From Fodinicola acaciae (GTDB taxonomy: Bacteria > Actinomycetota > Actinomycetes > Mycobacteriales > HKI-0501): 64,000 nt of DNA. Positions 1,119 through 62,484 of the stretch are shown here, piece after piece. Position 1 is the stretch's first letter; the number at the start of each line of letters is the position of its first letter. The position numbers were made by a program, and so were the translations under genes. The stretch is from the NCBI RefSeq assembly GCF_010993745.1, contig NZ_WOTN01000004.1, forward strand, positions 558,001 through 622,000, read 5' to 3'. The notes beneath the pieces were generated by a model. That model was not told the origin of the DNA, made no database searches, and saw only the letters and a program-made list of their open reading frames with translations.

Positions 1119-2057
1119 ATGACCACCCGCGAACGTACGACCGGCCCCGCAGCGCCTGCCGCGCTGCCGGAGGCGCCGGCGGCGTCCGCGCCTCTCCAGC
1201 CCGATGCCGGGACCACTCCTGTCGACACCGCCGGCCAGAGTCCGGCCGGCGGTGTCGACAGGAGTGGTCGGCGCAGGTCCCGCCGGGGACGCCGGCGGCG
1301 CGGTTCGCGCGGCGGCCGCCAGCGGCAGCAGACGACCGACCAGGTGGCTGGCCAGGTCACGCAGCCGGCCGCCGCCGAGCCATCCGCGCGTACGGAGGCG
1401 TCGGACCAGCCGGAAGGACCGTCCGCGAAACCGCGACGCCGGCGGCGTGGCGGCAAACGGCACCGTAAGAACAAGGCCGACCAGTCCACCGCCGACCCGC
1501 CGGCGGTCGCGGAGCAGCCGGCAACACAGCCAGCAGAGACACCGGCGCGCAGCCGGCGCAGCCGCCGCGGACGCGGTGGCCAGCAGCAGGTCAACGCCAA
1601 GAAGCCAGTGGGCCGCCGGCGCCGGCTGGTACGCGTCGACGAGACCTCGGCCGGCGGCCTGATCCTGGACGGTGACAGTGTCGAGGCGCGCGCCGCGCTG
1701 ATCGGTAAGCTGGACCGGCGCGGGCGCCTGGTGTGGTCCCTTCCCAAGGGACACGTCGAGGCCGGCGAGACGTACGAGCAGACAGCGGCGCGAGAAGTCC
1801 ACGAGGAGACCGGCATCATCGGCTTCGTGCAACACGCTCTTGGCACCGTGGACTACTGGTTCGTCGCCGACGGCCGGCGGATCCACAAGACGGTGCACCA
1901 CTTCCTGCTGCGTGCGACCGGTGGCGAGCTGTCCGACGCCGACCGCGAGGTGACCGAGGTGGCCTGGGTGCCGCTGGCCGAGCTGGACGACCGGCTGGCC
2001 TATCCGGACGAGCGCCGGCTGGCCGCCAAGGCGCACAAGCTGCTGAGCTCCGGCTGA
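1119..2057 (+). CDS. NUDIX hydrolase with basic low-complexity N-terminal half
   Basis: Predicted nucleoside-diphosphate-linked substrate hydrolase of 312 residues. The C-terminal half is a NUDIX domain with the box [20 protein letters not shown] near residues 210-230. The N-terminal 170 residues are Pro/Ala-rich and then carry several Arg/Lys runs such as [14 protein letters not shown], likely disordered and RNA- or membrane-binding. Position between pcnA and murJ matches MutT4 (Rv3908). The ATG at 1119 opens the conserved frame; the frame stays open upstream without a sensible start. A perfect 26-bp inverted repeat lies inside the coding sequence. The Rv3909-type DUF6049 gene normally found next in mycobacteria is missing, and murJ starts 9 bp after the stop. 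Substrate is not deducible. Confidence 0.88.
1211..1269. repeat. Perfect 26-bp inverted repeat inside the NUDIX gene
   Basis: Left arm 1211-1236 and right arm 1244-1269 are exact reverse complements (left arm begins GACCACTCCTGTCGACACCG), separated by 7 nt. The repeat is read through by the NUDIX frame, starting about 90 nt after the start codon, so the mRNA would fold into a very stable hairpin. Function unknown. Confidence 0.9.
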
Positions 2058-6177: not shown

Positions 6178-6378
6178 CGGCACGCCGAGTCCTGTCCCCG
6201 CCCTCCAGGTGCAGGTACGAGCATTGGATGAGTCGGACAGGAGCGGGGGAACCACGTGTTTCCCGGATTTCCGGCCGGCTAAACGTTCCGGTCGAGAAAT
6301 CCTTGGGGTGAAGCCACTCCCGAGTGGCCGGGGCCGCCTTCCCTCCCGAACCCGACAGCTCACCTCGCAGGCGTGCCG
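6178..6378 (+). promoter_or_regulatory. Cyclic di-AMP riboswitch (ydaO-yuaA class)
   Basis: Leader RNA aptamer for c-di-AMP. The closing P1 stem pairs CGGCACGCC (6178-6186) with GGCGTGCCG (6370-6378). Between them are the class hallmarks in order: GCGGGGGAACC near 6243, TTGGGGTGAAGCC near 6302, and CCGAACCCGACAGCTCACCT near 6346 followed by CGCAGGC. In actinobacteria this class commonly sits in front of wall-hydrolase genes and acts as an OFF switch at high c-di-AMP. The 3' P1 strand ends just before the hydrolase ribosome binding site, so control at translation initiation is plausible; a separate terminator was not identified. Confidence 0.88.
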
Positions 6379-6390
6379 GAAGGACCGCTT

Positions 6391-7410
6391 TTGCATACGG
6401 TGCGCACACACCGCCGTAGTCTCCCGCGTCCGCTGAAGAACAAGTGGCTCACCGCAACGCTCGGTGTGGCCGGTGCCGGCATCATCGCGGCCGGCGTTCT
6501 CGCGGCCCCCACCGTCTTCGCGGCCGAGTCGCTCAAGGTGACGCTGGCCCGCTACAACAGCCCGCAGTCGATCCCGCCGGGCGGCACCGCCTACCTGCGC
6601 GGCACCGTCAAGACCCCGCAGGGCCAGCCGGCCGGCAACGTGCCGGTGACCATCTCCCGGTTGGACGGCAAGGGCCACTACGCCTCGTTCGGCAGCTCGC
6701 GGACCGACAGCAACGGCGTGGTCACCTTCACGCTGCGGCCCGGCAGCTCGAACTACTACGCGATCTCGGCGAGCGGCGCCACCATCGGTGGCGGCTGCAC
6801 GCAGCAGCCCGCCGGCCAGTCCGCCCAGCAGCCGGCCCAGCAGGGTGGCGCGCAGAAGACCGGCGACAGCAAGCTGCCGGAGCGCAAGCCGGCCGCCGAC
6901 TCCTCCAGCCAGCCGGCCGACGCCACCGCTGACCCGAGCTCCGACCCGAGTTCCTCGCCGAGCGACACCACGCCGAGCTCGGAGGCGCCGACCAAGTGCG
7001 CCGACGGCACCGCATACGCCGGCGGCATGTCCAGCGGCGTGCCGATCTACGTGCAGAACAAGGGCCAGCAGGTCGTGCAGATGGCCTACCAGTACCGAGG
7101 CAAGCCATACCGCTACGGCGCCGCCGGCCCGAACTCGTTCGACTGCTCCGGTTACACACTGTTCATCTACGGCAAGTTCGGCAAGCGGCTGCCGCACAGC
7201 GCGACCTCACAGTCGCACTACGGCACCGCGGTGAGCCGCAGCCAGATGAAGCCGGGTGACCTGATGCTGTTCGGCAAGCCGGGCTCGTACTACCACGCGG
7301 CGATCTACGCCGGCGGCAACGAGATGTGGGACGCCTCTACCTACGGCAAGCCGACCGCGAAGCACAAGATCTGGAGCAACAACTACGTGGTGCGACGCAT
7401 CGTCACGTAG
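6391..7410 (+). CDS. Secreted NlpC/P60 peptidoglycan endopeptidase
   Basis: Cleaves stem peptides of peptidoglycan outside the membrane. A basic N terminus and a hydrophobic stretch ending PTVFAAES give a signal peptide cleaved near residue 42. Residues about 45-130 form an Ig-like domain; 130-200 are a Gln/Ala/Pro/Ser-rich linker. The C-terminal 115 residues are an NlpC/P60 domain with catalytic Cys in NSFDCSGY and His in YYHAAIYAGG. The frame is open from GTG 6373, but that overlaps the riboswitch P1 stem; GGAAGGA at 6378-6384 fits TTG 6391, with GTG 6400 as an alternative. Two hairpins follow the stop. c-di-AMP control couples wall cleavage to osmotic or turgor signalling. Confidence 0.92.
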   Translation: MHTVRTHRRSLPRPLKNKWLTATLGVAGAGIIAAGVLAAPTVFAAESLKVTLARYNSPQSIPPGGTAYLRGTVKTPQGQPAGNVPVTISRLDGKGHYASFGSSRTDSNGVVTFTLRPGSSNYYAISASGATIGGGCTQQPAGQSAQQPAQQGGAQKTGDSKLPERKPAADSSSQPADATADPSSDPSSSPSDTTPSSEAPTKCADGTAYAGGMSSGVPIYVQNKGQQVVQMAYQYRGKPYRYGAAGPNSFDCSGYTLFIYGKFGKRLPHSATSQSHYGTAVSRSQMKPGDLMLFGKPGSYYHAAIYAGGNEMWDASTYGKPTAKHKIWSNNYVVRRIVT

Positions 7411-7416
7411 TGACCG

Positions 7417-7451
7417 CGGATGGTTGCCAGAAAATTGCTGGCAACCATCCG
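7417..7451 (+). terminator. Hairpin terminator 1 after the NlpC/P60 gene
   Basis: A perfect 14-bp stem (7417-7430 with 7438-7451, CGGATGGTTGCCAG) and a 7-nt loop start 6 nt after the stop codon. There is no U-tract, as is common for actinobacterial terminators. Confidence 0.75.
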
Positions 7452-7473
7452 ACACCCTGCGGCGTCTCAACAT

Positions 7474-7504
7474 GGGGCACGATCCATTTTTTGGATCGTG
7501 CCCC
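7474..7504 (+). terminator. Hairpin terminator 2 after the NlpC/P60 gene
   Basis: A perfect 13-bp stem (7474-7486 with 7492-7504, GGGGCACGATCCA) closes a TTTTT loop. It sits in tandem with the hairpin at 7417-7451 and isolates the c-di-AMP controlled gene from the pseudokinase gene. Confidence 0.75.
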
Positions 7505-7556
7505 TGTTACGTACGGTCGGGGACGTCCGAAGAACAGACGTGCAGGGAATGAAACC

Positions 7557-9134
7557 GTGTCAAGACGAGCGAGTGCTGGCGGCGAGGTGCGATCATGGGT
7601 CCCGGAACAGTTGACCCGGCTCGCACGCGAGGGCGCGCCGGAGCAGTCGACGGAGTCTGTGGATGGGTCCCCAGCGTCGCGGGCCGCTGCCGATAGGGGA
7701 GGGCCAGTGGAGGGGGAAGGCCCGCGGGGGGCGACGGTGGCCGTGCTGGCCGCAGGTCAGGTGCTGGCCGGCCGCTATCGGCTGGACGAGCATCTGGTCG
7801 ATTCGACAACCGGTCGCGCTCTTTGGAGAGCGACCGATCTGCTGCTTGCGCGCGGCGTGGCCGTCGAGGTGCAGAGCACCGTCGGCGCCGACTCGCAGCA
7901 GCTGCTGGACACCGCGATGGCGATCTCACGCGTACGGCATCCGGCGATCGTGGCCATCTACGACGCCGTTGAGGAAACCGATCGCGCATACGTCGTGCGC
8001 GAATGGGCCGCCGGCGGACCACTGCGCAAGCTGCTGGCCAACGGTCCGCTCGAGGCGCACCAGGCCATCACGATCGCGCGCAGCGCCGCAGAGGGGCTCG
8101 CCGCACTGCACTCGGCCGGCGCGGCACACGGCAACCTGACCCCGACGACGGTCATCGTGAACAGCAACTTCGAGTGCACGATGACCGACCTGACGCTCGC
8201 CGAGTCGGCCGAGCCGGCGGCGGACGTACGCGCGGTCGGCGCGCTGCTCTACGCGGCGCTCACCGCCCGCTGGCCATCGGCCAACGGCAACACTCCGGAA
8301 GGCATGGTCCCGGCGACCCGGCTGGACGGCCGGCTGTGCACGCCACGGCAGATCCGCGCCGGCGTGCCGCACAAGCTCGACGCGCTGGCGATGGAGCTGC
8401 TGGACAACGAGCGGCCGGCGCCGGCCGCGCACGACCTGGCCAGCCAGCTCAACCAGCTGGAATATGCCAGCGAGCTGCGCCAGCGCGAGGGACTGACCGG
8501 CCAGCTGCCGCTGGCCGAGCCGCTCAACAAGCTGCGCGAGTCGCGGATCCGGCGGATCCCGCTGTGGGCCAAGCTCGGCATCCCGATCTGCGTGATGCTG
8601 GTGTTCCTGGCGATCCTCGCCGTGCTGGTGCTGCGTACGCCGACCGGCGACGGCAGCACGCCACCGGCCAACGCCACCAACCCCTCCAGCGCCGCGCCGG
8701 CTCTGCATGTCATCCAGCCCAAGGACGTCGAGATCGACGACCCGCAGGGTGACAACACCGAGAACAAAGGCGCGTCCAAGGCGATCGACGGCGACCGCAC
8801 CACCAAGTGGAAGACGGCCACCTACAAGGGCCAGTCCAACTTCGGTGGACTCAAGAAGGGCATGGGAGTCCGGGTCTCCTACGGCACCGCGCAGACGATC
8901 AAGCAGGTGGACGCCTATCTCGACCCGGCCGGCGCGACGGCGGTGCTCTACGTCGGCAACGACATCGACGAGCTGCACGACCGGCCGGTGGTGCAGCCGA
9001 CCTCGACCAACGGCGGACACCTCACCTTCCAGCTGAACGGCAAGTACAAGTACGTGCTGCTGTGGATCACCAACCTGCCGCCATACGAGACCGGATACGG
9101 GGTGGGCGTGCAGGAGATCGAGGCGAGGGGTTAA
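7557..9134 (+). CDS. Pseudokinase membrane protein (MviN C-terminal-like)
   Basis: A 525-residue protein. After a variable 60-residue N terminus comes a protein kinase fold (about 65-290) that lacks catalytic residues: the VAVK lysine is replaced in GVAVEVQS, the HRD loop reads AAHGNLTP and DFG reads MTDLTL. One transmembrane segment lies near 345-365 (GIPICVMLVFLAILAVLVL). The extracytoplasmic C-terminal 150 residues look like a discoidin/F5-8 type C fold (KAIDGDRTTKWKT). The same order is fused to MurJ in mycobacterial Rv3910, where the pseudokinase binds the FhaA regulator. GTG 7557 follows AGGGA; GTG 7707 behind AGGGGAGG is an alternative. The stop codon overlaps the left end of the palindrome at 9132. 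Confidence 0.87.
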   Translation: MSRRASAGGEVRSWVPEQLTRLAREGAPEQSTESVDGSPASRAAADRGGPVEGEGPRGATVAVLAAGQVLAGRYRLDEHLVDSTTGRALWRATDLLLARGVAVEVQSTVGADSQQLLDTAMAISRVRHPAIVAIYDAVEETDRAYVVREWAAGGPLRKLLANGPLEAHQAITIARSAAEGLAALHSAGAAHGNLTPTTVIVNSNFECTMTDLTLAESAEPAADVRAVGALLYAALTARWPSANGNTPEGMVPATRLDGRLCTPRQIRAGVPHKLDALAMELLDNERPAPAAHDLASQLNQLEYASELRQREGLTGQLPLAEPLNKLRESRIRRIPLWAKLGIPICVMLVFLAILAVLVLRTPTGDGSTPPANATNPSSAAPALHVIQPKDVEIDDPQGDNTENKGASKAIDGDRTTKWKTATYKGQSNFGGLKKGMGVRVSYGTAQTIKQVDAYLDPAGATAVLYVGNDIDELHDRPVVQPTSTNGGHLTFQLNGKYKYVLLWITNLPPYETGYGVGVQEIEARG

Positions 9135-9298
9135 GGCGTGTCTCCAAAATCCAGGTGCGCGAGAGTCGAGATCCAAACGTCGGCCTGCCTGCGCCGGACG
9201 ATGGCCCAAATAGCAGCGCTATGGTGGGTTATCGTCCGGTGCTGGCAGCCGGCGTTTGGGCTCGGCTATCGCGCACCTGGATTTGGAGACACGCCTTA
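9132..9298. repeat. 167-bp near-perfect palindrome, MITE-like
   Basis: The left end TAAGGCGTGTCTCC (9132-9145) is the exact reverse complement of the right end GGAGACACGCCTTA (9285-9298). Complementarity continues inward with scattered mismatches (CCAGGTGCGCGA and CCGGACGAT paired with their complements) to a central ATAGC/GCTAT stem near 9210. TTA lies at both outer edges, compatible with a 3-bp target duplication. No transposase is encoded. It fills the whole gap between the pseudokinase stop codon and the sigM start, so it may be a non-autonomous element or a regulatory hairpin. Confidence 0.75.
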
Positions 9299-9305
9299 GG
9301 CCGGG

Positions 9306-9965
9306 GTGACCACCGCGGGGTCGGAGCCGACCGACGCGGAGCTGCTCCGAGCACACGCGGACGGTGACCGCCACGCGTTCTCCACGCTGCTGGCGCGCCA
9401 CCGCGACCGGATGTGGGCGGTGGCGTTGCGGACGACCACCAACCGCGAGGACGCGGCGGACGCGCTGCAGGACGCCTGCCTGTCGGCGTTCCGGTCGGCC
9501 GCCAACTTCCGCGGCGACTCGGCGGTCAGCACCTGGCTGCACCGGATCGTCGTCAACGCGAGCCTGGACCGGCTGCGCCGACGGGCCGCGCGGCCAGCCC
9601 TGCCGCTGGAGGAGGTGAGGGTCGACCCGGCCGATCCGACCGACCAGGCCGACACGCTGGCGACACAGCTGACCGTACGGGAGGCACTGGCTGCGCTGCC
9701 CGACGACCAGCGGGCCGCGCTGGTGTTGGTGGACATCGAGGGCCTGCCGGTCGACCAGGCCGCCGAGGTGCTGGAGATCCCGGCCGGCACGGTGAAGAGC
9801 AGATGTGCGCGCGGCCGTGCGCGGATGGCCGTACTGCTCGGCCAGCTGCGGCCGGGCCGAACACAGCCGGCACGTGCGCCGGCTCACCGGAACGGTTCGG
9901 CGGACGGACGCGTCACATCCAAGACGGAGGGGAAGACCGAGGTTGCCGGAGGGGGTGCGCCATGA
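9306..9965 (+). CDS. sigM: ECF sigma factor SigM
   Basis: Directs RNA polymerase to stress promoters. The protein has 219 residues: sigma-70 region 2 (RHRDRMWAVALR, then DALQDACLSAF and STWLHRIVVNASLD) and region 4 (ALAALPDDQRAALVLVDIEG with the helix-turn-helix EVLEIPAGTVKSRCARGR). A low-complexity tail of about 35 residues follows. Synteny with Rv3911 supports SigM. GTG 9306 is forced, because an in-frame TAG at 9297-9299, inside the palindrome end, closes the frame upstream; only a weak AGG precedes it. The stop overlaps the next start (ATGA), indicating translational coupling with the membrane partner. Confidence 0.92.
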   Translation: MTTAGSEPTDAELLRAHADGDRHAFSTLLARHRDRMWAVALRTTTNREDAADALQDACLSAFRSAANFRGDSAVSTWLHRIVVNASLDRLRRRAARPALPLEEVRVDPADPTDQADTLATQLTVREALAALPDDQRAALVLVDIEGLPVDQAAEVLEIPAGTVKSRCARGRARMAVLLGQLRPGRTQPARAPAHRNGSADGRVTSKTEGKTEVAGGGAP

Positions 9966-62368: not shown

Positions 62369-62484
62369 GGTCTTCCCGTCGACACCTCAAGGCATGCAGA
62401 TCAGGTCTCCAGGGTCAACCGGTGAGGCGTTGGTTGACCCTGGAGACCTGATCTGCACGGGCTACGCCTGCCGACGGGAAGACC
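62369..62484. repeat. 116-bp nested palindrome near attR
   Basis: The outer arms GGTCTTCCCGTCG (62369-62381) and CGACGGGAAGACC (62472-62484) enclose a perfect 25-bp inner inverted repeat (62396-62420 with 62432-62456, left arm beginning GCAGATCAGGTCTCC) around an 11-nt loop. The segments between outer and inner arms are not complementary. Confidence 0.88.

Follow-up and report, generated by a model that had tools for sequence, protein, structure and literature searches.

A multicopy palindromic element with IS5-type ends and a strand-biased stem upstream of sigM in Fodinicola acaciae

MITEs are usually regarded as passive DNA with borrowed ends, and to our knowledge no RNA role has been described for ordinary MITEs. 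The stem-loop repeats Correia/NEMIS and ERIC are co-transcribed with neighbouring genes, and effects on mRNA processing have been proposed for them (PMC2229807). In Coxiella, the MITEs QMITE1 and QMITE2 give rise to small RNAs, and QMITE1 has promoters of its own (PMC5896051). The palindromic element analysed here lies upstream of sigM in Fodinicola acaciae, in a window of 64,000 nucleotides (contig NZ_WOTN01000004.1, positions 558,001 to 622,000). We interpret it, with a probability of roughly 0.7, as a non-autonomous MITE-like element that is mobilised by IS5-type transposases, whose inner RNA stem has been under selection and whose ends have been exchanged.

The element comprises 161 bp, starts with GGCGTGTCTCC and ends with GGAGACACGCC (Table 1). 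A first-pass annotation of the window had claimed nearly complete self-complementarity, TTA at both edges and no coding capacity, and all three claims hold: the RNA fold reaches -153.2 kcal/mol against -76.7 ± 4.4 for shuffled sequences (z -17.2; none of 200 shuffles was equally stable), the edges are TTAA on the left and TTAG on the right, and no gene was called within the 161 bp. Along the + strand the left target-site copy is followed by the element, the right copy, the hexanucleotide GCCGGG and the GTG start of sigM. A search of Rfam 15 gave no match above the gathering score at the element, and the sub-threshold matches were mostly to eukaryotic microRNA precursors (best 31 bits, cut-off 100). 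Elsewhere in the window, positions 62395-62457 contain an inverted repeat (TGCAGATCAGGTCTCCAGGGTCAACC) with perfect arms of 26 bp separated by 11 nt, and a c-di-AMP riboswitch (RF00379, 63.7 bits) lies at 6216-6387, 5' of an NlpC/P60 gene.

Table 1. Features of the sigM locus and of the palindromic element (positions in the window)
Feature	Position	Strand	Basis or remark
Upstream membrane protein with protein-kinase-like domain	7326..9134	+	Pfam kinase matches; longest ORF
Left target-site copy TTAA	9131..9134	.	Sequence; YTAR-type flanks in most copies
Present pseudokinase stop codon TAA	9132-9134		Within left target-site copy TTAA
Complete palindromic element, type A ends	9135..9295	+ (sigM sense)	Fold; copies in genome
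Left terminal inverted repeat GGCGTGTCTCCAAAATCC	9135..9152	+	First 15 bp as in IS5-family L279/L030, same genome
Left core motif GAGAGTCGAGATCC	9161..9174	+	Common to copies of all end types
Core hairpin stem and apical loop	9161..9270	+	Arm differences retain G.U pairs on + strand
Right core motif GGGCTCGGCTATC	9258..9270	+	Aligned copies
Right terminal inverted repeat	9278..9295	-	Sequence
Right target-site copy TTAG	9296..9299	.	Last base unlike left copy; empty-site comparison
sigM, ECF sigma factor	9306..9965	+	NCBIfam NF007225, 259.5 bits, cut-off 190

The element at the sigM site is almost certainly mobile and MITE-like, as the first-pass annotation had proposed; the many copies, the unoccupied site in the sister species and the IS5-family sequences that share its ends all agree with this reading. 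A genome-wide BLAST search returned matches at about 45 places in the F. acaciae genome (4 contigs, 8.86 Mb; contig C2 has 2,350,191 bases), including one full-length copy with 96% identity. The same family is present in the sister Fodinicola species (8.7 Mb, about 110 contigs), and at least 98 clean copies could be classified across the two genomes. The opposite case, a single copy conserved in place, does not apply, the element being multicopy and absent from the sigM locus of the sister species. Very short elements (L281, L296) consist of little beyond two back-to-back terminal repeats (about 60 bp or less). Contig C1 starts and stops inside type B terminal repeats (C1:9-26 and C1:3221655-3221672), and the F. 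acaciae assembly may therefore break at these elements.

Outside the two Fodinicola species the known distribution is sparse. No copies were found in one further genome of the same GTDB family, and none of 84,980 other genomes gave an exact 22-mer match. A plasmid collection matched neither the window element nor the homologue L300, and viral contigs gave matches of 15-16-mers to single motifs, none containing both motifs together. Model R1, applied to 200 genomes of the order, detected one more genome with the element (L300, from another family), which has CTAG flanks, GATGAGAGTCG...CGACTATCGC and fold energies of -148/-108 kcal/mol (+/- strand). A broader model R2, run on collected loci, detected it in Asanoa ishikariensis (L214; -142/-104), both searches covering a partial rather than exhaustive sample of genomes or loci. 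The Asanoa element (L214:6152-6326) is situated 3 nt past a TGA stop and has ends AGGGCCTGTCCTGCCGATCAACG.

Most copies of types A, A2, H and I are flanked by YTAR on both sides, many of them by CTAG/CTAG. Identical 4-bp flanks occur in 19 of 95 copies by a crude test, and the two flanks at the sigM site differ by one base; CTAG is itself palindromic, so that the flanks fix no exact duplication length. The corresponding locus of the sister species is an empty site, which implies that the element arrived after the split of the two Fodinicola species. There the kinase gene ends in TGA, followed by GGCCGGCGG and the GTG of sigM. Removing the element of F. acaciae in silico yields ...GAG GCG AGG GGT TAG GCC GGG GTG; with the flanks joined, the pseudokinase ends in ...GVGVQEIEARG-stop (TAG), at the same end residue as in the sister species, and 6 nt separate the restored TAG from the sigM GTG. 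The pseudokinase stop is therefore older than the insertion, which on this sequence comparison took place after the species split, in a YTAR target that overlaps the stop codon. The start of the kinase-like gene in Table 1 is that of the longest open reading frame, the coding-score start being 7707.

These comparisons change several details of the first-pass annotation. The element does not provide the pseudokinase stop, as had been stated, since its removal leaves a TAG at the residue where the sister gene ends. The TAG described as closing the sigM frame upstream is indeed in frame, but it is this same pre-existing stop. The annotation also gave sigM no clear ribosome binding site, a weakness that the insertion explains only in part. 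In F. acaciae the upstream AGGGG has been shifted 161 bp away while TTAGG still adjoins the start, but the sister species also has just GAGG, 8 nt upstream of the GTG.

Candidate partners for mobilisation are found among insertion sequences of the IS5 family, at which the ends GGCGTGTCTCCAAA recur with CTAG flanks. A degraded copy (L030/L279, ends GGCGTGTCTCCAAAA) matches the type A ends over 15 bp, and four near-identical IS5-type copies (L270-L273, ends GGCGTGTTTCCAAAC, CTAG flanks) match them over 14 bp with one mismatch. In the type G copies the ends, GAGGTCGCGCA, correspond to those of L278, another IS5-type element. The transposase frames match NF033580, "IS5 family transposase"; a search with Pfam DDE_Tnp_4 gave no match. 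The two Fodinicola genomes were also searched for paired type B, C, D or H ends 0.7-3 kb apart; none turned up, nor did an autonomous partner for these types. The subterminal core is missing from the insertion sequences examined (L030/L279). IS5-family transposases would recognise the outer ~18 bp and mobilise the element.

One and the same core is found within at least ten types of terminal repeats (A/A2, A', D, B, C, E, F, G, H and I). Aligned copies have GAGAGTCGAGATCC...GGGCTCGGCTATC and the intervening stem in common, while the outer ~18 bp vary by type, and the core motif is constantly located about 26 bp from the element end, whichever the end type. Types A, A' and D appear related to each other, as do B, C and E; others are unlike, e.g., TACTACAGGGCTACTCA. 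Three copies possess two different ends: L061 combines a type A2 end on the left with a type I end on the right, L110 carries A' and D, and L299, a minimal hybrid, joins D and B. The existence of these hybrids makes recombination between copies the most likely, and simplest, explanation for the multiple end types, with ends probably being swapped inside the common core. In the subfamilies L023-L027 and L095-L110 the right arm has CCCGAGAAAGATGTGACAGC where other copies have a pairing CGTTTGG stretch. In the literature searched we found no precedent for MITEs with a common core but different ends, though this does not prove that none exists.

In each of the 95 copies tested, folding is more stable on the + (motif) strand than on its complement, with a mean difference of 29.8 kcal/mol, and alifold gives -90.6 kcal/mol on the + strand versus -47.2 on the - strand. 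The same bias is observed in the homologues L300 and L214. A control palindrome from the same window (1155-1325) folds at -136.4/-135.9 kcal/mol, with no strand difference; this region (1150-1330) has arms 1211-1239/1241-1269 that are 97% complementary and probably lies within a coding region. However, a generic scan for strong hairpins resulted in a median strand difference of 8 kcal/mol over 310 hairpins, mostly chance folds of GC-rich coding DNA. Because such chance folds also give strand differences, asymmetry of fold energy alone is weak evidence, and our main argument rests on the counts of G·U and A·C mismatches between the arms.

Core arm mismatches give G·U on the + strand in 589 cases versus A·C in 51, the latter mainly from the rearranged D and A' subfamilies, in which the arm-to-arm comparison is noisy. 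Within the nine family consensuses, transitions between the arms give G·U in 95 cases and A·C in 0, at 30 distinct positions (p 2e-9), and compensatory changes occur in 26 of 50 consensus base pairs. Changes private to single copies are nearly balanced (35 G·U, 26 A·C), and the contrast between consensuses and singletons is strong (Fisher p 4e-13, or 3.6e-6 if distinct positions, 30:0, are used). We interpret this contrast as an indication that spreading lineages kept + strand pairing, while resting copies drift. From the computed bias we infer that the inner ~120 bp have quite probably been selected for RNA pairing on the + strand. The outer ~18 bp are almost perfect repeats with few G·U-type differences and look as expected for predicted transposase binding sites. 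Both strands form very stable hairpins, so the difference between them may matter little in the cell.

The same counts have to be weighed against a simpler view, in which the element is an ordinary MITE only, its stem a by-product of long terminal repeats, its core a matter of ancestry and its G.U pairs a few ancestral mismatches. Almost every hallmark of a MITE is present, and at core positions 5, 11 and 19 an identical G.U pair recurs in each of the nine consensuses, which suggests that the pattern is partly inherited. We nevertheless consider this view unlikely, because at least 12 of the 30 G·U positions occur in one family only, all in the same direction (p 5e-4), recent changes lack such a bias, and pairs have been altered on both sides between families. 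Even less likely is a mutational origin of the bias, by G.T mispairs arising in transposition or fold-back copying, or by deamination of one strand during movement. G.T is generally known as a frequent polymerase mispair, and the restriction of the bias to differences between families would fit errors made at transposition rather than at rest. Yet a ratio of 95:0 exceeds what is generally known of polymerase or deamination spectra, and between families G-U has replaced A-U as well as G-C, which deamination of C alone cannot produce.

Under selection for RNA pairing, the constraint on the + strand would act during the spread of copies. The hairpin transcript of active copies might aid the mobilisation of the element itself, for example through a protein bound via the conserved motif of a G.A mismatch and an A-bulge. 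A specific RNA function in mobilisation is a tentative proposal on our part. Equally tentative is the wider notion of a selfish RNA-hairpin element of actinobacteria, a transposon satellite living on many IS5-type transposases through exchange of its ends and possibly needing a hairpin transcribed from one strand for its spread. What sets the family apart is the combination of apparently interchangeable ends with a conserved interior, whose RNA signature is confined to one strand and fades in copies at rest. If the proposal is true, some bacterial MITEs make use of an RNA in moving or in being tolerated. The test of G·U against A·C between arms, comparing consensuses with single copies, is applicable to any palindromic repeat family.

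The genomic placement of the copies bears on the element's meaning for sigM. Intergenic sites account for 67 of 91 copies, whereas points chosen at random in the vicinity are intergenic in 26% of cases (p 7e-20); genes were called from codon usage by a simple program trained on the window. Element edges are located within 35 bp of a gene 3' end in 45 cases and of a 5' end in 19, and the closeness to 3' ends fits targets that contain stop codons. A preference for the sense orientation, which would be predicted if the host made use of the hairpin in its mRNA, was sought among the 34 copies between same-direction genes and was not seen; the tendency is weakly the reverse (24 antisense, 10 sense; p 0.02) and therefore gives no indication that copies are retained because a sense-strand hairpin acts on their neighbours.

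The kinase-sigM transcript would carry the stronger hairpin strand, with a stem of roughly -142 kcal/mol, and by analogy with other MITE hairpins this stem is a likely RNase III substrate (PMC2229807). An effect of the element on sigM, for which the first-pass annotation had suggested insulation or control, is plausible. Since the stem base would bring the pseudokinase stop and the sigM start close together, translational coupling of the two genes may partly survive. At this locus, the transcript of a gene for an ECF sigma factor would contain a very stable hairpin of recent origin. That the hairpin was placed or kept there as a device to insulate or attenuate sigM expression appears very improbable to us: the element is missing from the sister species, belongs to a family with about a hundred copies at unrelated places and has no T-tract 3' of the stem. 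Its sense orientation exactly between the upstream stop and the sigM start speaks for such a device, as do the effects of bacterial MITE transcripts (NEMIS, ERIC) on mRNA processing or stability (PMC2229807). An intrinsic terminator was rejected, the stem being followed by TTAGGCCGGGG with no T run.

Among known systems, REP/BIME (palindromes of 20-40 bp with a GTAG or CGTC tag and no IS ends) were rejected, given the 161 bp and the IS5-type ends of the element. Correia/NEMIS and ERIC are likewise stem-loop mobile repeats of 100-170 bp, but are unrelated in sequence and host; the literature searched, including PMC2229807, holds no record of strand-specific G.U pairs for them, and we found no precedent there for a strand-specific G·U stem in MITEs. 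QMITE1 and QMITE2 resemble the Fodinicola element as a MITE family with RNA-level output (small RNAs there, predicted from sequence here), but differ in ends and host. IS5-family insertion sequences of the NF033580 type share the type A and G terminal repeats and the CTAG/YTAR target, whereas the Fodinicola element has no transposase gene and its core is missing from L030/L279. RUP of the pneumococcus, for which IS630-Spn1 is the proposed mover, is alike in being short, non-coding and multicopy, with ends of a resident IS, an adjoining target site and empty sites. Unlike such IS-derived MITEs, the Fodinicola core joins at least ten end types, and its stem is probably conserved as RNA, on one strand.
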